Shown piece by piece: positions 37,003 through 46,406 of a DNA stretch of 46,406 bases; within the stretch, counting starts at the first letter, position 1, and every line of letters begins with the position of its first letter. The translations under genes and the position numbers were made by a program. The notes under the pieces were generated by a model. That model saw nothing but the letters and a program-made list of their open reading frames with translations. It made no database searches and had not been told where the DNA came from. The DNA comes from an uncultured Bacteroidota bacterium (GTDB lineage Bacteria > Bacteroidota > Bacteroidia > UKL13-3). The stretch lies in the NCBI GenBank assembly GCA_903927505.1, contig CAIYNF010000089.1:1-46406 (forward strand), read 5' to 3'.

Positions 37003-37094
37003 GGAGAGATGGGTGAGAGGCTGAAACCACCGGTTTGCTAAACCGACGTAGGTAGTAATATCTACCGCGGGTTCGAATCCCGCTCTCTCCGCCA
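37003..37094 (+). tRNA. tRNA-Ser (anticodon GCT)
   Basis: The acceptor stem is GGAGAGA (37003-37009) with TCTCTCC (37084-37090), discriminator G and encoded CCA (37092-37094). The anticodon GCT is at 37037-37039. A long variable arm (GGTAGTAATATCTACC) and a T-arm GCGGGTTCGAATCCCGC make it a class II serine tRNA. The reverse-strand frame across it is not a gene. Confidence 0.95.
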
Positions 37095-37286: not shown

Positions 37287-37747
37287 AATCAGTTTGAGTT
37301 GGAGTGTGAGCATACAGGAGAATCAGTTTGAGTTAGCGTGCGAGCATACAGAAGAATCAGTTTGAGTTAGCGTTTGAGCATACAGGAGAATCAGTTTGAG
37401 TTAGCGTGTGAGCATACAGAAGAATCAGTTTGAGTTAGCGTTTGAGCATACAGCAGTAAATAATCTTGCTCAATACTCAAACTGTATGCTGATTCATTGG
37501 CGTGCGAGCATACAGAAGAATCAGTTTGAGTTAGCGTTTGAGCTTACAGGAGTAAATACTCTTGCTCAATACTCAAACTGTATGCTGATTCATTGGCGTG
37601 TGAGCATACAGCAGTAAATACTCTTGCTCAATACTCAAACTGTATGCTGATTCATTGGCGTGTGAGCTTACAGGAATAAATACTCTTGCTCAATACTCAA
37701 ACTGTATGCTGATTCAACTGTATGCTGATTCAACTGTATGCTGACTC
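37287..37747. repeat. Tandem repeat array with 34-bp and 62-bp units
   Basis: Unit A (34 bp, AATCAGTTTGAGTTAGCG then TGTGAGCATACAGAAG) occurs in tandem at 37287, 37321, 37355, 37389 and 37423, and again at 37519. Unit B (62 bp, beginning TAAATACTCTTGCTCAATAC) occurs at 37457, 37553, 37615 and, truncated, at 37677. Within B, CTGTATGCT and AGCATACAG form a hairpin, and CTCAAACTG is the inverse of CAGTTTGAG in A, so the array folds on itself. It ends with three 16-bp repeats AACTGTATGCTGATTC. There are no unique spacers, so it is not CRISPR. Confidence 0.85.
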
Positions 37748-37984: not shown

Positions 37985-38002
37985 TAGTAAATCTGATTGA
38001 TA

Positions 38003-39484
38003 ATGGAAAAAAATAGGCCGATACACTTGCAAGAAGTAATATGTAGTTCACAGGATGCTAAGATTTCTAAACAAATTACAAAATTGTTATCTGCTGGAGT
38101 CATTAGAAAAATTGCCCCAAGGGTATATTCTTCAAATTTAGACGAACCAATAGAAGGCATTATACGAAGAAATCTCTTTCAGATTTTAGGGACTATCTAC
38201 CCTGGTACAATGCTTAGCCATCGCTCTGCTTTTGAATTTCAGCCAACTAAAACGGGACAGCTATTTTTAACTACGAGTTATACTAAAAAAGTAAAGCTTC
38301 CTGGAATTACCATTCAATTTCTATCAGGCCCTTCACCGATAGAAGGTGATAATAAATTTTCAGGGGAATTGTCTGCCTCTCAGAAGGCACGTGCATTTTT
38401 GGAAAATTTGCAAGCAACAAAGAAATTAGGAAGTGAATCAAAATGTTTGAGTTTGCCAGAAATAGAGGAGCGATTAGAACAGATCATTCGAGTTAATGGC
38501 GAAGTAGAAATTAATAAATTAAGAGACCAAGCTCGTGGAATCTCTGAGCAATTGGGTATGCAACAGGAGTTTGAAAAATTAAACCGATTGATCAGTGCCT
38601 TGTTAACTACAAAAACATCAAAAATATTAAGTTCACCTTTGGCAAAAGCGAGGGCATTTGGAAAGCCCTATGATCCTTCAAGGATGGAATTATTTGAAAC
38701 TTTATTCCGTGAGTTAAAGCAAATAGAATTCCCATATCGAGAGGAGAAAAATACTACTCCCACATCTTTTAGAAATTTTGCATTTTTCGAAAGCTATTTT
38801 TCAAATTACATTGAAGGAACGGTATTTGAAATTGATGAGGCAAAACAAATCATTCAAACCAATAAGCCAATTCCAGCGAGAAACGATGATAGTCATGATG
38901 TATTAGGAACGTATCAGATTGTTTCTAATAAAAAGGAAATGGAAATTACGCCTTCAACTCCTGAAGCGTTTTTGAAAATAATAGCTTTTCGACATTCGAT
39001 ATTGCTGAGTGCGAGAGTAGATAAAAACCCTGGTCTTTTTAAAGACAAGAATAATTTTGCAGGAAGTACTGCCTTTGTAGATTATAATTTGGTAAGAGGT
39101 ACATTGCTTCAAAGCCATGACTTTTATAGTGCATTGGATCATCCATTTGCCAAAGCTGCATACATTATGTTCGTTATGAGCGAGGTACATCCTTTCTTAG
39201 ATGGAAATGGTAGAATTGCACGAGTGATGATGAATGCGGAGCTTGTAAAAGCAGGACAATCAAAAATTATAATACCTACTGTCTTTAGAGAGGATTATAT
39301 GGGAGCATTGAAGAAATTCACGAAACAACGTAAATGTGATACGTATATCAAAATGTTACAACATGCTCAGGCGTTTAGTGCGAATGTATACTCAGAAAAT
39401 ATGGATGACATGCAAGCGTATTTAACTTCATGCAATGCATTTAACGAAGATTCAGATGTGCTATTGAAAATAAAGACACGTTAA
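38003..39484 (+). CDS. Fic-domain AMPylase-like protein with AbiEi-like N-terminal domain
   Basis: From the ATG at 38003 this is a 493-residue protein. Residues 1-140 (QITKLLSAGVIRKIAPRVYS, LSHRSAFEF, VKLPGITIQFLSGP) resemble the winged-helix and following domain of AbiEi-type antitoxins. The Fic core follows, with HPFLDGNGRIAR at 396-407 matching HPFx(D/E)GNGRxxR, so transfer of AMP or another nucleotide group to a protein is expected. SNYIEG (267-272) matches the inhibitory motif (S/T)xxxE(G/N), placing it among class II Fic proteins whose own helix blocks ATP, here upstream of the core. The N-domain probably binds the operator array before the gene. It lies in a repeat-flanked island between two tRNA genes. 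A TTG six bases earlier is a less likely start. Confidence 0.85.
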   Translation: MEKNRPIHLQEVICSSQDAKISKQITKLLSAGVIRKIAPRVYSSNLDEPIEGIIRRNLFQILGTIYPGTMLSHRSAFEFQPTKTGQLFLTTSYTKKVKLPGITIQFLSGPSPIEGDNKFSGELSASQKARAFLENLQATKKLGSESKCLSLPEIEERLEQIIRVNGEVEINKLRDQARGISEQLGMQQEFEKLNRLISALLTTKTSKILSSPLAKARAFGKPYDPSRMELFETLFRELKQIEFPYREEKNTTPTSFRNFAFFESYFSNYIEGTVFEIDEAKQIIQTNKPIPARNDDSHDVLGTYQIVSNKKEMEITPSTPEAFLKIIAFRHSILLSARVDKNPGLFKDKNNFAGSTAFVDYNLVRGTLLQSHDFYSALDHPFAKAAYIMFVMSEVHPFLDGNGRIARVMMNAELVKAGQSKIIIPTVFREDYMGALKKFTKQRKCDTYIKMLQHAQAFSANVYSENMDDMQAYLTSCNAFNEDSDVLLKIKTR

Positions 39485-39631
39485 TACAAATTAAAGGAGT
39501 GGGTTAAAAAGCATAGGTCAATATGATAAAATAAATAGGTTCATTATCTTAGATGAAACCTAAGGAAACTCAAACCAGACAAGCAAGCCCTCCTTTAGGT
39601 TGCTTAGTTTCTAAGGGGTAGCTGCTCTTTC
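39485..39631. other. AT-rich gap after the Fic gene
   Basis: No gene is seen. AACCTAAGG near 39557 and CCTTTAGGTT near 39592 can form a hairpin, and a further partial complement lies near 39608-39618; one of them may end Fic transcription, though no T run follows. Confidence 0.35.
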
Positions 39632-39731
39632 CTCAAACTATATGCTGATTCATTAGCGTTTGAGCATTCAGGAATAAATACTCTTGCTCATTACTCAAAC
39701 TGTATGCTGACTCAACTGTATGCTGATTCAA
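39632..39731. repeat. Second copy of the tandem repeat family
   Basis: CTCAAACTATATGCTGATTC begins a partial unit B (39632-39674). Another unit B follows from 39675 (TAAATACTCTTGCTCATTAC) and ends with the same 16-bp repeats AACTGTATGCTGAYTC as the array left of the Fic gene. Orientation is the same. Confidence 0.85.
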
Positions 39732-39849
39732 AACTCCCCTCAATACCCAAACAATCAGCACTATTGAAAAAATATTTCAATAAAATGCTTGTATTTATTG
39801 CATAATTCCTAGGAATTCTTATTTTTGCCCCTCCTAATACAATAGGAAT

Positions 39850-39923
39850 CGGGGTGTAGCGTAGCCTGGTATCGCGCCACATTTGGGATGTGGAGGTCGT
39901 AGGTTCGAATCCTGCCACCCCGA
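39850..39923 (+). tRNA. tRNA-Pro (anticodon TGG)
   Basis: The acceptor stem is CGGGGTG (39850-39856) with CACCCCG (39916-39922), discriminator A at 39923; CCA is not encoded. The anticodon stem-loop CCACA-TTTGGGA-TGTGG gives TGG. The T-arm is AGGTTCGAATCCT. Confidence 0.95.
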
Positions 39924-39925
39924 CG

Positions 39926-40034: not shown

Positions 40035-40481
40035 CTACCCCTTCATAAACTTATTCAATTGCGTTATTTGTTCTGGGTTCATTTCTTGGCGTAGAATGGT
40101 CTCATGCTCCAAGATAAAATTGTTTAATTGACCACGTTTCATTTCTAAGGTATTGATGAGTTTGCGACGTGCTTCATAATAACTAATGCTGCGCACCACA
40201 TAATAGGAAGTGGAAACCAACCAAGCCACTATATAATAAGGCAAGTATATTACAGCGTCAAATTTAAATGTGGGAATTAATAGTGATAAAATACCAATAA
40301 CAACTAAAATAATGATTGCAAAAATGATTAAGCCTGTTAAAAAAGTTGGAAGAAAATTATTTGTTCGCAAATCTTGTGTTTTCAACTTCGTTTCATATTT
40401 ATGAAGCATTTCTTCATCCAGTTCTAACCAATTTGCGTATAAGCGCGACCATTCTTTGAGGAGTACATCTTTTTGATTCAT
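40035..40481 (-). CDS. Two-helix membrane protein of unknown function
   Basis: This 148-residue protein has a charged N-terminal helix (1-40), two membrane helices (about 47-70 and 77-98) and a helical C-terminal tail (105-148) rich in charged residues. No family is recognised. Its start overlaps the stop of the lipoprotein gene by four bases, so the two are coupled, and both are divergent from the CHAT lipoprotein. It may belong to the same module, but that rests on position alone. Confidence 0.55.
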   Translation of the reverse strand: MNQKDVLLKEWSRLYANWLELDEEMLHKYETKLKTQDLRTNNFLPTFLTGLIIFAIIILVVIGILSLLIPTFKFDAVIYLPYYIVAWLVSTSYYVVRSISYYEARRKLINTLEMKRGQLNNFILEHETILRQEMNPEQITQLNKFMKG

Positions 40482-41053
40482 TTAACATCTATAAGTTTAT
40501 AGGTAAACAAATTAGGCTCAATAATAGCACCAGAGGCACCAAAAGCCAGACAGGCATCAATTGCTCTATTAATGCATTGATTTTTGATATGGGCAGAATT
40601 CCCTATAGGCAATAAAATCCCTAAAAATCGCCAATTAAAATAATCCCACTGATAAATTGTTTTAACATCATAATTTACATTTAATAATTTCTCATTAAAA
40701 CTAATGATGATTTGTATATCAGCTATACTATCTATAACAAAATGTAAATTCATTTTTTGCTTTAACAAATAACTTTTTCTTTCAATTTCATTACTCGTTT
40801 TATGTGTATTTTTTCCTAATACAACAATTTCACTATCAATAGCCATTCGCTGATTCAATTTAAATTGATTTAATTTTGAAGGAATAGCTATTTTTGTGTT
40901 ACATAAAAAGTAATTATCTTTTTTAACAAGGGAATAATGAGAAACAGAACGAATTTGATTCCTCTGCACTAATTGATTAACTGGAATGGAAACATTACAA
41001 CTAAAAAAAACACTCATAAAAATTACAAACAATGGCAATAATTTTTTTTTCAT
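40478..41053 (-). CDS. Lipoprotein of unknown function
   Basis: This 191-residue protein has a lipoprotein signal (MKKKLLPLFVIFMSVFFSC, lipid on C19). A beta-rich domain follows, with SIADIQIIISFNEKLLNVNYDV and a C-terminal GASGAIIEPNLFTYKLIDVK that recalls lipoproteins with a periplasmic DUF-type beta sandwich. No motif allows a function. It overlaps the two-helix membrane gene by four bases. The intergenic region 41054-41169 separates it from the CHAT gene transcribed in the other direction. Confidence 0.6.
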   Translation of the reverse strand: MKKKLLPLFVIFMSVFFSCNVSIPVNQLVQRNQIRSVSHYSLVKKDNYFLCNTKIAIPSKLNQFKLNQRMAIDSEIVVLGKNTHKTSNEIERKSYLLKQKMNLHFVIDSIADIQIIISFNEKLLNVNYDVKTIYQWDYFNWRFLGILLPIGNSAHIKNQCINRAIDACLAFGASGAIIEPNLFTYKLIDVK

Positions 41054-41129
41054 AATATAATAATTAATTTAAGGCTATGCCTTAGTTCCATTTTTAAAGG
41101 AAAGGTCAACAGAGAATCGAAAAATAAAT

Positions 41130-41137
41130 TAATTTTG
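41130..41137 (+). promoter_or_regulatory. -7 box of the CHAT lipoprotein gene
   Basis: TAATTTTG is a full match. A start near 41143 coincides with the upstream ATG at 41143 and supports the ATG at 41170 as the real start. Confidence 0.45.
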
Positions 41138-41169
41138 TATGAATGACCTATTTAGCCGCCCCTAAATAC

Positions 41170-43512
41170 ATGCAAAAAAATAAATATAAAGTGCTAATTT
41201 TCATTGCTTTAACATGCTTTACAGCTTGCAATGGCCCACAAAATATTTCTGAAATAAAAACCGATACTAAATTCAAATCCATATCAACACAAAGCGATTC
41301 TTGCTTAAAGGTATTGTCGTATAAACACCCTTTAGCATATTTTTTTGATGGAGGTTACAGTGAAATGGCTTTTAAAATTGTGGCAGACTCTTTGGATAAA
41401 ATGTCGAACCAAAGACGCGTTGTCTGTGCCCAAATATTTATTGATTATGGGCATTTTGAAAAAGGATTACAACTGATAGAAAACATAAATGATTCCAATG
41501 TTAATTTTGAAATCCTACATATTCAAATGTTGGCTTCCCTTAATAAACTAGATACAAATGCTTCTCGAAAGATGCGTATTGGATTGGCCCAAGAACTACA
41601 AAGAAAACCTAGCATTGAACACCAATTTGACTTTGATGCACTAAATGCATATTACTACCACAATTGTGGAAATTACTTAGCAGCTATAAAGCTAAATTTA
41701 GATTTATTAAAACGTATTAAGGGTACTGTATACGAGGATAAATTTGAACGAAAAATATACAGACGTTTAGGAAATAGCTACAATGATATTGTTAGAATAA
41801 ATATACCCTTTAAGGAAAGCAGAGAAATTTGTTTCAAAAAAACTTTGCGCTATTACGCAAAGGAAAAGGAAATTTTGGATCGGCAAAAACCCAGTAATGA
41901 AATTAGAAAAGGCCTTAATTTAATAACCACAGCAATGCTGTTAAATGAGGACAAAAAAACCAATATCATCCCTTATTATATTGGGGCTTTGGGGCATCTC
42001 ATTCAATACAAAGACAAAGATTTTATTTTATCTAGAAACAATATTTATACGAGTATTGCTATTACCCAAATGGCAGGAATTGGTTTAAAAAGAAAAAATG
42101 AAATTAATAGCAGGCAAATCGATAGTTTAATTGATTTAAATAAGAGCTTAATGGAACAACAAACCATTTTATCGCTCAATTCAAATGAAGGCTTAGATTT
42201 AAAGGAGTACTATACACAAATTTGTCAGGAAATGAAATTGGTTTTATACTGTCAGGATAAATCCAAACTACCCAATTCACTTGAGTTATTAAATCAATCC
42301 AACAGCTCTAAATATCCAAATACAAATTGGCTCAATGCGCTCAAAAGCACTTTTGGAGAAAGCTATAAAGATGCCGGTAAAACTTGGCGTATCCTAAACG
42401 AAATGAGGGTGCTTGCCATAAAAGAAAACGACACCAAACTATTGGTGTTTAGTGAAAAACAATTGGATTTTTTTAATCCAAAAATAAATCAAGTTTTAAA
42501 GGCAAACAAACCACTTTTACTTGATAAAATTTGGCTAGAACAAACAATTGATAAATGTAAAAAAGAAGACAGGTGTATAATTGATTATCAATTTTTATTT
42601 AATAAAGAAACTATTCTAATAAAAATAGATAAAACAGGAATTCAAACAATTTTCATTAAGCCATCTGAACGTATTTCCGAACAGGAAATAAATGCATTGG
42701 TTCACCTCATGCATACCGACAGTATAGCAGCCTATGAAACGCTTGCCTGCAGCATTGCACGGAGACTTGGCTTAACAACAATTTCAAGCAAAAATATTTC
42801 AATTTGCACAGACGAATATTTAGAAAAAATACCCTTTGACGCATTGGTTATTAAAACACATGGTGCTAAAAAATGGAATGAACTTGCCTATTTAGGTGAG
42901 GAAAAAAATATTTCATTATTGCCGAACCTAAACTGCACTGGCAAACAAACAGAAGAAATATTGGATTCAAAAATTAATGTATGGTACTCCGATTCCGACA
43001 ATCAAACTTTGCCGTTTAACGGACAACTGATTAAGTTTTTTCAAGATAAATTTTCATGCGAAACAAATAATAAAGCGCTCAACAAAAATGGGATTCACCA
43101 TATTATGTCGCATACCCATAATAACAAAACAGGTGGTATCCAATTTGAACTCAATGATGCTAAAATTAACCTCTCGTCTGAGGGATTAGGATGCATGCTA
43201 AGCGTATTGCATGGATGTAAATCTGGCGAAGGAAAAGTAATTAAATCTGAGGGCAGTTTATCACTTGTAAGAATGTTTTTTTACAATGGTGCAAAGTCGG
43301 TAATATTTTCCAACTGGGAGGCAGACAATGCATCTAGTACCTTCATGTTTGAAAACTTTTATGACCTATTGCAAAAAGGCGAAAGTACCCATAAGGCCTT
43401 AGCCCTAGCAAAAGGAAGCATCAGAAAACATCCGCAATTTTCTGAATGGGCCAATCCTTTTTATTGGGCCAATTTTCAGGTGAGTGGAAACGATTTAAGG
43501 CTTGGACAATAA
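41170..43512 (+). CDS. TPR-CHAT caspase-like lipoprotein
   Basis: From the ATG at 41170 this is a 780-residue protein. QKNKYKVLIFIALTCFTACN is a lipoprotein signal with lipid on the cysteine of FTAC. A long helical region (about 60-440) contains TPR-like repeats such as GNYLAAIKLNLDLLKRI. The C-terminal CHAT domain (about 560-775) has H648 in IMSHTH and C683 in LHGCKSGEG, the His-Cys pair of caspase-like peptidases, followed by SLVRMFFYNGAKSVIFSNW and a C-terminal helix ending in NPFYWANF, all typical of CHAT. It should be an envelope protease, or a CHAT scaffold if inactive. Its 3' end overlaps the anti-sigma gene by 18 bases. Confidence 0.88.
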   Translation: MQKNKYKVLIFIALTCFTACNGPQNISEIKTDTKFKSISTQSDSCLKVLSYKHPLAYFFDGGYSEMAFKIVADSLDKMSNQRRVVCAQIFIDYGHFEKGLQLIENINDSNVNFEILHIQMLASLNKLDTNASRKMRIGLAQELQRKPSIEHQFDFDALNAYYYHNCGNYLAAIKLNLDLLKRIKGTVYEDKFERKIYRRLGNSYNDIVRINIPFKESREICFKKTLRYYAKEKEILDRQKPSNEIRKGLNLITTAMLLNEDKKTNIIPYYIGALGHLIQYKDKDFILSRNNIYTSIAITQMAGIGLKRKNEINSRQIDSLIDLNKSLMEQQTILSLNSNEGLDLKEYYTQICQEMKLVLYCQDKSKLPNSLELLNQSNSSKYPNTNWLNALKSTFGESYKDAGKTWRILNEMRVLAIKENDTKLLVFSEKQLDFFNPKINQVLKANKPLLLDKIWLEQTIDKCKKEDRCIIDYQFLFNKETILIKIDKTGIQTIFIKPSERISEQEINALVHLMHTDSIAAYETLACSIARRLGLTTISSKNISICTDEYLEKIPFDALVIKTHGAKKWNELAYLGEEKNISLLPNLNCTGKQTEEILDSKINVWYSDSDNQTLPFNGQLIKFFQDKFSCETNNKALNKNGIHHIMSHTHNNKTGGIQFELNDAKINLSSEGLGCMLSVLHGCKSGEGKVIKSEGSLSLVRMFFYNGAKSVIFSNWEADNASSTFMFENFYDLLQKGESTHKALALAKGSIRKHPQFSEWANPFYWANFQVSGNDLRLGQ

Positions 43513-44241
43513 GCGAAGAATTTCTTGTGCTTGCGACTGATAAGATTGGGCAGGATCAGCAGCAATTTTGGCGAACATGTTTTTAGCTAAAGCGGAATTA
43601 AAATTAAGTTGAACCAATGCCAAACGGAACGCTGCTTTATTGGCAATAAAGGTAGAATTGGAGTTTTTTAATTTGGCATATACTGGAAGTACTTCTTGGT
43701 AGTTGCTAAGTAATTCATTGCAAATTGCTGCATAATACAAAGAAGTATCAGATTTTGGCATTTTGTTTAATTGATAAAAACAATTGACATAGTCCTTTTT
43801 AGCAAATAACAGCATTACTTGTTTATAATCGCTTTCATTATCTGCATCCATGGTGATGGGCAAACCAGGTTCTGCAAGCATATAGGTTTGGTATACTTGC
43901 TGAGAAAGGCTGTTTTTATTGCGCGTAAAAAGCAATAATATCATCAAAAGAATAGAAGCCGCTAAAGACAGGCCGATCCAAGCTTTTCTCCAAGACCTTT
44001 TCCCTGTACGTGCATTTTTTTCTAGTCCGGATAACCTTGTTTTAATTGCCATTCGCACAAATTGATCTGCCTCAATTTCGTTGCGCAAAGCGCGATACAC
44101 CAAATATTTATGGCGAAATAAAGGGTCTGTATTTAAGTTTAACTGAAGGGATTGGAATGCGTCAGCAGAAAGCGAACCCTCAAACATGGCATCAAAAACT
44201 TCAATATCGGTATCTAGCAAAATTATTTCTTCCTTATTCAT
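43495..44241 (-). CDS. Membrane anti-sigma-like protein with TPR-like tail
   Basis: This 248-residue protein has a cytoplasmic N-terminal part (1-85), including an acidic start and a helix VFDAMFEGSLSADAFQSLQL, as in Bacteroidota anti-sigma factors. One membrane helix is at 88-106. The extracytoplasmic part (110-248) resembles helical TPR repeats (KDYVNCFYQLNKMPKSDTSLYYAAICNELL, YQEVLPVYAKLK). It overlaps the ECF sigma gene by eight bases and so is made with it. It should hold the sigma factor at the membrane and release it on a signal. No zinc-binding ZAS motif (HxxxCxxC) is seen, so recognition would be by another fold. Confidence 0.7.
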   Translation of the reverse strand: MNKEEIILLDTDIEVFDAMFEGSLSADAFQSLQLNLNTDPLFRHKYLVYRALRNEIEADQFVRMAIKTRLSGLEKNARTGKRSWRKAWIGLSLAASILLMILLLFTRNKNSLSQQVYQTYMLAEPGLPITMDADNESDYKQVMLLFAKKDYVNCFYQLNKMPKSDTSLYYAAICNELLSNYQEVLPVYAKLKNSNSTFIANKAAFRLALVQLNFNSALAKNMFAKIAADPAQSYQSQAQEILRLLSKP

Positions 44242-44776
44242 GGCTATTTAATTTTATTACGTTTTGACTAAAAGCTGCAATGCACCTGCTTTTCTGACTT
44301 TTCACTGTATTTGCATTTTTATATTGTAGTATTTCGGCTATTTCCTCCATTGATTTTTTGTGGAAATAAAAGAGGTTTAAAATTTGTTTGCAGGCATCCG
44401 ACATTTTGCTGAAAACAAACTTCACTGCTTCATCAATTTTTGGATCGTACAAATCTTCGCTCAAAGCATTTTCGGCATAAAACTCACCTAAATCTGTGTG
44501 CTGCCCTTTTTTGTCGGCCCATTTAATGAGGCGCATTTTACCTATTTGTATAATATAAGCAGAAAGGCTTGAATTAATTTCTAGGAGCAAACCCTTTTGT
44601 ATATTCTGGTAAAAAACAATGATCGCATCTTGGTAAATATCCTCCATATCGCTAATAGGAATAGCGCGAAAATTTCTTTGGGCATAGGACATAAAAAGAG
44701 GCTTCACCTCTAAATATATCTTATCGAGCTGCTCCAAATCTCCGTTTTTTATTTTTTCAAATTGTTCTTTCAGCAT
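44234..44776 (-). CDS. RNA polymerase sigma factor, ECF type
   Basis: This 180-residue sigma-70 family protein has region 2 at about 15-95, with DMEDIYQDAIIVFYQNI and LSAYIIQIGKMRLIKWADKK. Region 4 is at about 120-175, with MSDACKQILNLFYFHKKSMEEIAEILQYKNANTVKSQKSRC, the helix-turn-helix that reads the -35 element. Regions 1 and 3 are absent, as in ECF factors. It is first in an operon with the anti-sigma-like gene. A -7 box of the housekeeping type (TAGATTTG) lies upstream, and self-activation cannot be judged. Confidence 0.88.
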   Translation of the reverse strand: MLKEQFEKIKNGDLEQLDKIYLEVKPLFMSYAQRNFRAIPISDMEDIYQDAIIVFYQNIQKGLLLEINSSLSAYIIQIGKMRLIKWADKKGQHTDLGEFYAENALSEDLYDPKIDEAVKFVFSKMSDACKQILNLFYFHKKSMEEIAEILQYKNANTVKSQKSRCIAAFSQNVIKLNSHE

Positions 44777-44905: not shown

Positions 44906-46406
44906 ATGAAAAAATTTATAATTCTAATTTTATTGCTAAGTTTATTTATAAGCAAAAATGCTTTTAGCCAATGCGGTACCATTATGGTAAATGCAAGCAA
45001 CTTGCAGTACCCCGACACCAGTACCAATTTACCTCAAACCTTCCAAAATGTGCCCTACAGCGCAACCCTGCAGTTATATGCACCAAGCACAGTAATGGTG
45101 GGTTCAATACCTGTTACAATTACCAATTACACTATAAATAGTATTAGCGGTTTGCCAAGTGGCTTTACTTATACCCAATATCCTGTTTCAGGTGTTTTGC
45201 CTGGAGGATCTGCTGGATGTATTAATTTCACCTGTAGCAATGTAATTGCGCCATTGGCCACCTATCCATTAACCATTAATGCAACTATCAATTCTCCATT
45301 TGGCTCAAGCGCAACAAGCATAGTGGGTTATAAAATTGTTATCAAAGCAATTCCTACTAACATTGCCATTTATAATTCAATTGCCCCGCCAACAAATGCT
45401 TGGTATTCTGTAAACGATTGGATTGATTCTTTAGCGACAGGCTCAACAATTCCTGACTATGGCTTTTTAATGAAAGATAGCCTTTCTAAATATGCCGACC
45501 CCTCAGGCGGCAGCGCTTTTGGAATTAGTAGTATTTCTATTGGAAGTGCCATGGATGTAAGTGATGCTATTATTAATAATTACAACCCTGCTTTGAGAAG
45601 TAATGATGGCGACAGTGCCGTTGTTGATTCTTTGTTATTTCCCTACAGCTATATTAGAAATACAGATTCCATTATGGTTGGCACTAATAAGCTACCTGTG
45701 GTAGATACCCTTTTTGTTACTTGGTACAAAAACATCCACCTATTTAGGGGATATTTTACAGCCAGTGGCACTTATTGTACATTCCCTCCAGGTGCAAGTT
45801 GGGATAGTACCAAATTAAGACAAACTTTATTTTTAAAGGTGGACACTATTTTGCTGAGAAAACCAGATACTACTACGGTTTTTAATAACAATGGTGGTTG
45901 GGAAAATGAATGGACTCAGAGAACTATGAAACTCAGGGCACCATCGGGACTAATTGCTGGAACCAGTAGTGCCAATAAATTATTTGGTTATAGCATTAAA
46001 TTTAGCTCGGGCGTATCTGCAAGAGACACTGGTTGGATGATTTACCAGATAAACCCAAGCGGACTTCCTACTGGATTGAAACGACCCAACTATTTTAGTT
46101 TTGCCTATCAAAGTGAGCAAGGAAGCGGGGATGCAAGCACGCTCATGGACAAATCATACAGCGGAAGCTATGAAAGTAGAAAAGAATGGGCATACCAACA
46201 TTACTATTCTTGGATCGGACATATTCCAAATAGTGCATTTAATCCAGGATACCGCTGGTTCTTGAGTGCGCGTTATAAAATAAGGAATTTTGGCACAAGC
46301 AAATGTTTTGTATCTGATACCGTAATTTGTAAAGGCAACAAAGTCTATTTCCAACTTAACAATTGTACTTTATTTCAAGGCACTAACAATCTAGGTAGTA
46401 ATACCA
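44906..46406 (+). CDS. Large secreted protein, 3' end beyond the window
   Basis: The frame from ATG 44906 is open to the right edge (500 codons) without a stop. MKKFIILILLLSLFISKNAFS is a signal peptide. The mature chain is rich in Ser, Thr, Asn, Tyr and Gly, with an Ig/CARDB-like start (SAKLQLYAPSTV-like strands, VPVTITNYTI) and later YSWIGHIPNSAFNPGYRW; no catalytic motif was seen. Such Bacteroidota proteins often end in a type IX secretion sorting domain, which would lie outside the window. It is divergent from the sigma operon. TTG-N19-TTACTTTG (44854-44884) is a weak promoter candidate. Confidence 0.7.
   Translation, partial: MKKFIILILLLSLFISKNAFSQCGTIMVNASNLQYPDTSTNLPQTFQNVPYSATLQLYAPSTVMVGSIPVTITNYTINSISGLPSGFTYTQYPVSGVLPGGSAGCINFTCSNVIAPLATYPLTINATINSPFGSSATSIVGYKIVIKAIPTNIAIYNSIAPPTNAWYSVNDWIDSLATGSTIPDYGFLMKDSLSKYADPSGGSAFGISSISIGSAMDVSDAIINNYNPALRSNDGDSAVVDSLLFPYSYIRNTDSIMVGTNKLPVVDTLFVTWYKNIHLFRGYFTASGTYCTFPPGASWDSTKLRQTLFLKVDTILLRKPDTTTVFNNNGGWENEWTQRTMKLRAPSGLIAGTSSANKLFGYSIKFSSGVSARDTGWMIYQINPSGLPTGLKRPNYFSFAYQSEQGSGDASTLMDKSYSGSYESRKEWAYQHYYSWIGHIPNSAFNPGYRWFLSARYKIRNFGTSKCFVSDTVICKGNKVYFQLNNCTLFQGTNNLGSNT

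Follow-up and report, generated by a model that had tools for sequence, protein, structure and literature searches.

A TPR-CHAT protein family predicted to cut membrane anti-sigma factors outside the inner membrane of Bacteroidota

An ECF sigma factor, a membrane anti-sigma factor and an exported TPR-CHAT protein are encoded together in about 80 Bacteroidota loci, and a residue in the predicted S1 pocket of the CHAT protein co-varies with the juxtamembrane linker of the anti-sigma factor. It is likely that the exported TPR-CHAT protein, once activated, would cut this linker and release the sigma factor, the three proteins forming an outside-in switch. Protease-controlled anti-sigma factors are a main bacterial way of reading extracytoplasmic stress, and we know of no account of the sensing mode of most Bacteroidota ECF systems. 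If true, the proposed switch would constitute a new bacterial route from an outside signal to gene expression. A widely distributed group of TPR-CHAT proteins, hitherto mostly tied to CRISPR immunity and cell death, would acquire an ordinary role in signalling beyond the inner membrane, their substrates being named and the cut site predicted.

A recurring trio of genes and its surroundings

The window, i.e. the whole stretch of 46,406 nt that was analysed, carries the locus between positions 40,035 and 44,776, and the five open reading frames described in a preceding sequence-only reading, including their positions, strands and overlaps, came out the same when the sequence was read again. The gene of the ECF sigma factor (180 aa; 44234..44776, minus strand) overlaps by 8 bases with that of the anti-sigma factor (248 aa; 43495..44241, minus strand), and the gene of the TPR-CHAT protein (41143..43512, plus strand) runs convergent to the latter with an overlap of 18 bases. 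Translated from the ATG at 41143, the CHAT protein comprises 789 aa and its catalytic dyad is numbered H657/C692; from the ATG at 41170 it comprises 780 aa, with the dyad at H648/C683, the numbering used here.

The same convergent order of the trio is present in the relatives G011, G016 and G006, whose sigma factors are 100%, 97% and 59% identical to the window copy, respectively; with more divergent sequence, this order also occurs in G007, G019 (twice) and G032, all of them of the same family. Outside the family of the window it is found convergent, divergent or as a single operon, and across the tallied loci 35 are convergent, 28 divergent and 17 on the same strand. A first scan of contigs returned two close loci only. 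The survey of co-occurrence in Bacteroidota genomes bears out the idea, put forward from the sequence alone, that the three genes are a conserved unit. In the class survey an ECF sigma gene lay within 4 kb of 26/41 CHAT genes coding for a C-terminal transmembrane (TM) helix versus 5/41 of those without (Fisher 3e-6), and per genus, over all loci, 16/22 versus 5/24 were sigma-linked (p 9e-4); since sigma-linked CHATs served to build the profile for this survey, its absolute frequencies carry a bias, which affects the comparison of CHATs with and without the TM to a lesser degree. Among 65 CHAT proteins with a C-terminal TM, 26 have no sigma gene nearby. The 7.2 Mb genome G037 (loci L049-L078, L097), which belongs to the same class, harbors about 20 CHAT genes, roughly nine of them beside sigma/anti-sigma pairs; its other CHATs with a C-terminal TM and no sigma nearby may serve anti-sigma factors elsewhere.

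Clustering of neighbors at the trio loci gave no fourth gene of comparable conservation, only groups of four loci or fewer; a promoter scan produced motif matches at chance level only, and the PADLOC defence models matched neither the CHAT protein nor the anti-sigma factor of the window. In the open-access literature, to which the search was confined, no description of a non-CRISPR sigma/anti-sigma/CHAT trio was recognised.

A divergent pair of genes had at first been counted with the module, and both genes are real as sequence. The 191-aa lipoprotein-like reading frame (40478..41053, minus strand), however, was rejected as a component and placed outside the module, because it is missing from the 99%-identical relative G011; it has no homologue in 25 further genomes that were searched and represents a private insertion, residing in a segment of some 580 bp for which G011 has only about 20 bp. 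The 148-aa two-helix protein (40035..40481, minus strand) was likewise rejected as a core part, its gene having been found, next to the CHAT gene, in the closest relatives G011 and G016 only. In G016 (L064 4077-6488), a gene for an 804-aa protein with an N-terminal signal is located between tRNA-Pro and the 148-aa gene; it is missing in the window and is variable cargo beside the tRNA. Further along the window, a Fic-domain gene (37997-39484; PADLOC SoFic match, 5e-18) lies between tRNA-Ser (37003-37094) and tRNA-Pro (39850-39924), and short tandem repeats (QFELAFELTGVNTLAQYSNCMLIHWRVSIQ in one frame) occur at 37408-37617 and again at about 39620-39740, near tRNA-Pro. On the other side of the trio, the start of a gene for a large secreted protein, divergent from the sigma gene, occupies 44906-46406 and ends at the contig edge; no Pfam match was obtained for this protein, and its gene is a possible target of the sigma factor.

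Domains, fold and topology

The sigma factor of the window matches NCBIfam TIGR02937 at 2e-13, above the cut-off, which identifies it as an ECF sigma factor with sigma70-ECF regions 2 and 4. Its neighbor directly downstream has the features of a membrane anti-sigma factor, namely a cytoplasmic N-terminus and one TM (residues 87-105) with positive charge ahead of it, which places the tail outside; the anti-sigma factors of the family have one TM as well, in most cases preceded by positive charge. The AF2 model (mean pLDDT 87) comprises cytoplasmic helices at residues 10-78 and a confident helix repeat at 136-245, i.e. the periplasmic TPR helices, which are connected to the TM by the juxtamembrane linker (106-135). 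TPR models match about half of the 43 anti-sigma factors, and the family profile retrieves TPR structures with an E value of 4e-58; zf-HC2 gave a weak match in just 2 of the 43. The N-terminal helices are proposed to hold the ECF sigma factor inside.

The CHAT protein of the window hits PF12770 at 3.2e-20 (73 bits, against a cut-off of 24), and Pfam TPR_12 was found in 30 of 41 CHAT proteins, so both proteins, for which single sequences give only a faint TPR signal, are recognisable as TPR proteins at family level. His648 (43111..43113, plus strand) and Cys683 (43216..43218, plus strand), which the sequence-only reading had singled out, are the right catalytic residues for the start at 41170: an alignment of 41 sequences shows no exception at either position, and both residues are retained in 73/73 protease/anti-sigma pairs. 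Strand 642-647 immediately precedes His648, and the dyad is situated at the ends of core strands, as in CHAT peptidases; by sequence the protein is predicted to be a cysteine protease of clan CD. Its model (mean pLDDT 75) retrieved Csx29/TPR-CHAT as the top Foldseek match in the PDB (E 4e-13, best in the complex with Csx30), followed by separase. In VIA-align a Z of 26.0 was reached with Csx29 over 561 aligned residues at an rmsd of 18.5, from which it follows that the relative placement of the domains differs; the protease domain of separase gave Z 24.8 over 297 residues at an rmsd of 3.3, as expected for the separase/caspase-like fold, and gingipain R gave Z ≈ 16.

An N-terminal hydrophobic signal, assigned by simple rules, is present in 39/41 sigma-linked CHATs, and 39/41 possess a C-terminal TM, which in 38 of these 39 is followed by a positively charged tail; this combination places the TPR and CHAT parts in the periplasm. 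The window protein and its sister from G016 have no C-terminal TM and carry a lipobox-like motif, which in the window belongs to a putative signal peptide (...IALTCFTAC, Cys being residue 20 of 780; 41170..41235, plus strand). The putative lipid anchor would be restricted to the clade of the window, nearly all other linked members having the C-terminal TM. In this usual form the catalytic Cys is found about 100 residues ahead of the C-terminal TM and the linker Arg of the anti-sigma factor about 25 residues past its own TM, distances which bring both close to the periplasmic side of the inner membrane. The topologies support the original supposition that both domains are outside this membrane.

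Co-variation of the S1 position with the anti-sigma linker

A linker connecting TM and TPR part is common to the anti-sigma factors of the family; at its end stands Arg, Met or Leu, and a small residue comes next. After 38 linkers had been labelled basic or non-basic prior to inspection of the CHAT sequences, a scan of all CHAT-domain columns returned a single outlier, the column of L620 (43027..43029, plus strand; z 14, runner-up 5), with Glu in 20/21 CHATs having Arg/Lys-type partners and an acidic residue in 0/17 others (6e-10). In the CHAT model, L620 is part of a helix (615-627) that follows strand 601-606 and precedes the strands ending at His648, and which corresponds to helix alpha-1 of the caspase-like fold. 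In gingipain R and MALT1, the P1 Arg is bound by an acidic residue of the equivalent helix (Asp163 and Asp365, respectively; PMC4357240, PMC4626109), and the L620 position, occupied by Glu in the Arg-type subfamily, is predicted to form part of the S1 pocket.

With the labelling rule fixed in advance, 40 new loci were then collected, and a Glu CHAT was found with 23/23 Arg-type linkers and a non-acidic one with 7/13 others (Fisher 2e-4). The six misses consist of one spurious, distant sigma pair and five linkers with Arg followed by G/T, which the rule skipped; this account is post hoc, most of the misses being failures of the rule, which in its fixed form is weak for the non-Arg class. Under a plain criterion chosen after the test (Arg, then G/S/A/D/N/T, 7-38 residues past the TM), the 73 pairs show Glu in 48/48 with the Arg motif and a non-acidic residue in 22/25 without it (9e-16); the background of the same pattern in the TPR part of these anti-sigma factors amounts to 22% per segment of equal length. 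Furthermore, out of 52,486 pairs of columns between the two proteins (APC-corrected, the alignment being blind to the motif), the one formed by the L620 column and the linker Arg scores highest, and the L620 column also ranks first on the test pairs alone. Lys-type linkers (LPS[FY]xxK; L116, L180, L200) go along with Val, Met or Ile at the S1 position, not with Glu, so that a different residue may be cut in this subgroup. The Glu state undergoes about 7 parsimony changes along the CHAT tree; the 7 phylogenetically independent contrasts comprise 5 concordant, 2 uninformative and 0 discordant cases. The statistical case is strong in pattern and moderate in the count of independent events.

Because of this co-variation, the CHAT protein most likely cuts the anti-sigma factor in the juxtamembrane linker and so frees the sigma factor. 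The sequence-only reading had also assumed such a cut, which the co-variation supports, but had located it in the TPR tail itself, whereas the predicted site lies ahead of it, at about residues 131-134. The pair in the window belongs to a subgroup with linkers of the type PGLPxxM[S/D], in which an apolar or small residue replaces Glu, and its predicted cleavage region, M131-D134 (PGLPIT-MDAD; 43840..43851, minus strand), falls on the conserved R/M-[G/S/A/D] motif, the one found to co-vary with the S1 residue. The conserved Met suggests a cut at M131-D132, and the alignment to the Arg type suggests one at A133-D134; exactly which bond would be cut is ambiguous in this non-Glu subgroup, where L620 by itself has little predictive value. 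A Met near the predicted cut has a precedent in Csx30, whose cleavage by Csx29 falls between residues 427 and 429, beside M427 (PMC10028731).

In the proposed mechanism, the TPR-CHAT protein would leave the cytoplasm and stay attached to the cell envelope, its separase-like protease domain directed toward the periplasm, and the anti-sigma factor would span the inner membrane once, keeping the sigma factor inside by its N-terminal helices and presenting linker and TPR repeats on the far side. Once the TPRs of the CHAT protein sense a signal or a partner, the protease would cut the linker some 25 residues beyond the membrane, which for the window means a cut within MDAD (131-134); the remaining stump would presumably be processed by an RseP-type protease, and the sigma factor set free. 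An RseP homologue is present in the genome of the window.

The arrangement of the genes could also be rationalized if the CHAT protein were an output of the sigma factor, a protease for other periplasmic targets, with the anti-sigma factor sensing by other means: in most loci the CHAT gene is transcribed separately (35 convergent and 28 divergent versus 17 on the same strand), which is target-gene-like as well, and positive feedback is possible too. Nevertheless, we consider this distinctly unlikely, as a co-variation of CHAT pocket and anti-sigma linker is unexpected for an enzyme and a substrate that never meet. Alternatively, the CHAT protein might bind the linker as a sensor or co-inhibitor and not cut it; the Glu-Arg pair would then be a binding contact, and a salt bridge alone is expected to produce the same co-variation; a scaffold role is frequent among TPR proteins, and DdvA (8rot), an anti-sigma factor bearing a CHAT, has the CHAT placed inside the regulator. 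Binding without cutting appears a shade less likely still, however, given that His and Cys are invariant in every one of the 73 pairs and that the co-varying residue is part of the clan CD element which recognises P1.

Shared ancestry, on the other hand, would dispense with any contact, Glu and Arg both being ancestral and jointly lost in few lineages. The Glu state changes just 7 times by parsimony and related loci are non-independent, yet all 52,486 column pairs, of which the one in question ranks first, have the same phylogeny, the independent contrasts include 5 concordant and 0 discordant cases, and Arg-type and non-Arg-type pairs coexist as paralogues in G037, G116 and G218; we regard this origin of the pattern as very improbable. 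Returning to cleavage by the CHAT protein, the preferred reading, we lean somewhat towards its wider form, according to which such trios would be Bacteroidota-wide, CRISPR-independent extracytoplasmic sigma switches with membrane-tethered separase-like site-1 proteases, their paralogous pairs insulated in part by a code between S1 pocket and P1 residue.

Relation to known systems

In the DegS-RseA-RseP-RpoE system a periplasmic site-1 cut of a one-TM anti-sigma factor is followed by intramembrane proteolysis; DegS is a PDZ serine protease, whereas a separase-like cysteine protease and a TPR-tailed anti-sigma factor would be employed here. CalpL-CalpT-CalpS (type III CRISPR) shares with the present proposal an anti-sigma factor which is cut by a protease to free the sigma factor, the protease CalpL being Lon-like, cOA-activated and cytoplasmic. 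In the SAVED-CHAT/PCaspase cascade of type III-B CRISPR a CHAT protease acts upstream of sigma/anti-sigma control; SAVED-CHAT is cytoplasmic, is activated by cyclic nucleotide and works via a second protease. Its structure (PDB 8tl0) gave a weaker Foldseek match to the CHAT protein of the window. The search of the PDB by profile was dominated by TPR matches with the full-length protein and was rerun with the CHAT domain alone; the best sequence match to this domain profile was DdvA, the transmembrane anti-sigma factor of Myxococcus xanthus (PDB 8rot/8rw5). There, too, a CHAT is tied to a membrane anti-sigma factor of an ECF sigma factor (DdvS), but it is contained in the anti-sigma factor itself, whereas the window encodes it as a separate protein with a separate anchor.

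The sequence-only reading had taken CalpL-CalpT-CalpS as the precedent, but Csx29-Csx30-CASP-sigma is nearer. This set of proteins belongs to the type III-E CRISPR Craspase, in which Csx30 acts as an inhibitor of CASP-sigma and undergoes cleavage within a small loop, residues 427-429 (PMC10028731, PMC9729208). It combines a protease of TPR-CHAT type with a substrate resembling an anti-sigma factor and with an ECF sigma factor, and it provides the closest known logic; the TPR-CHAT architecture is common to both. On the other hand, Csx29 becomes active through Cas7-11 when the latter has bound target RNA, whereas the system in the window is CRISPR-free; RAMP genes (PF03787) were searched for in the genome of the window and none was found, and the CHATs of this type are exported where the Craspase protease is cytoplasmic, two differences which set the window system apart from Craspase. 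Likewise, the anti-sigma factor is a one-TM protein with periplasmic TPRs, unlike Csx30. Should the proposed switch be real, Csx29-Csx30-CASP-sigma could be regarded as a single branch within a broader control of sigma factors by TPR-CHAT proteins.
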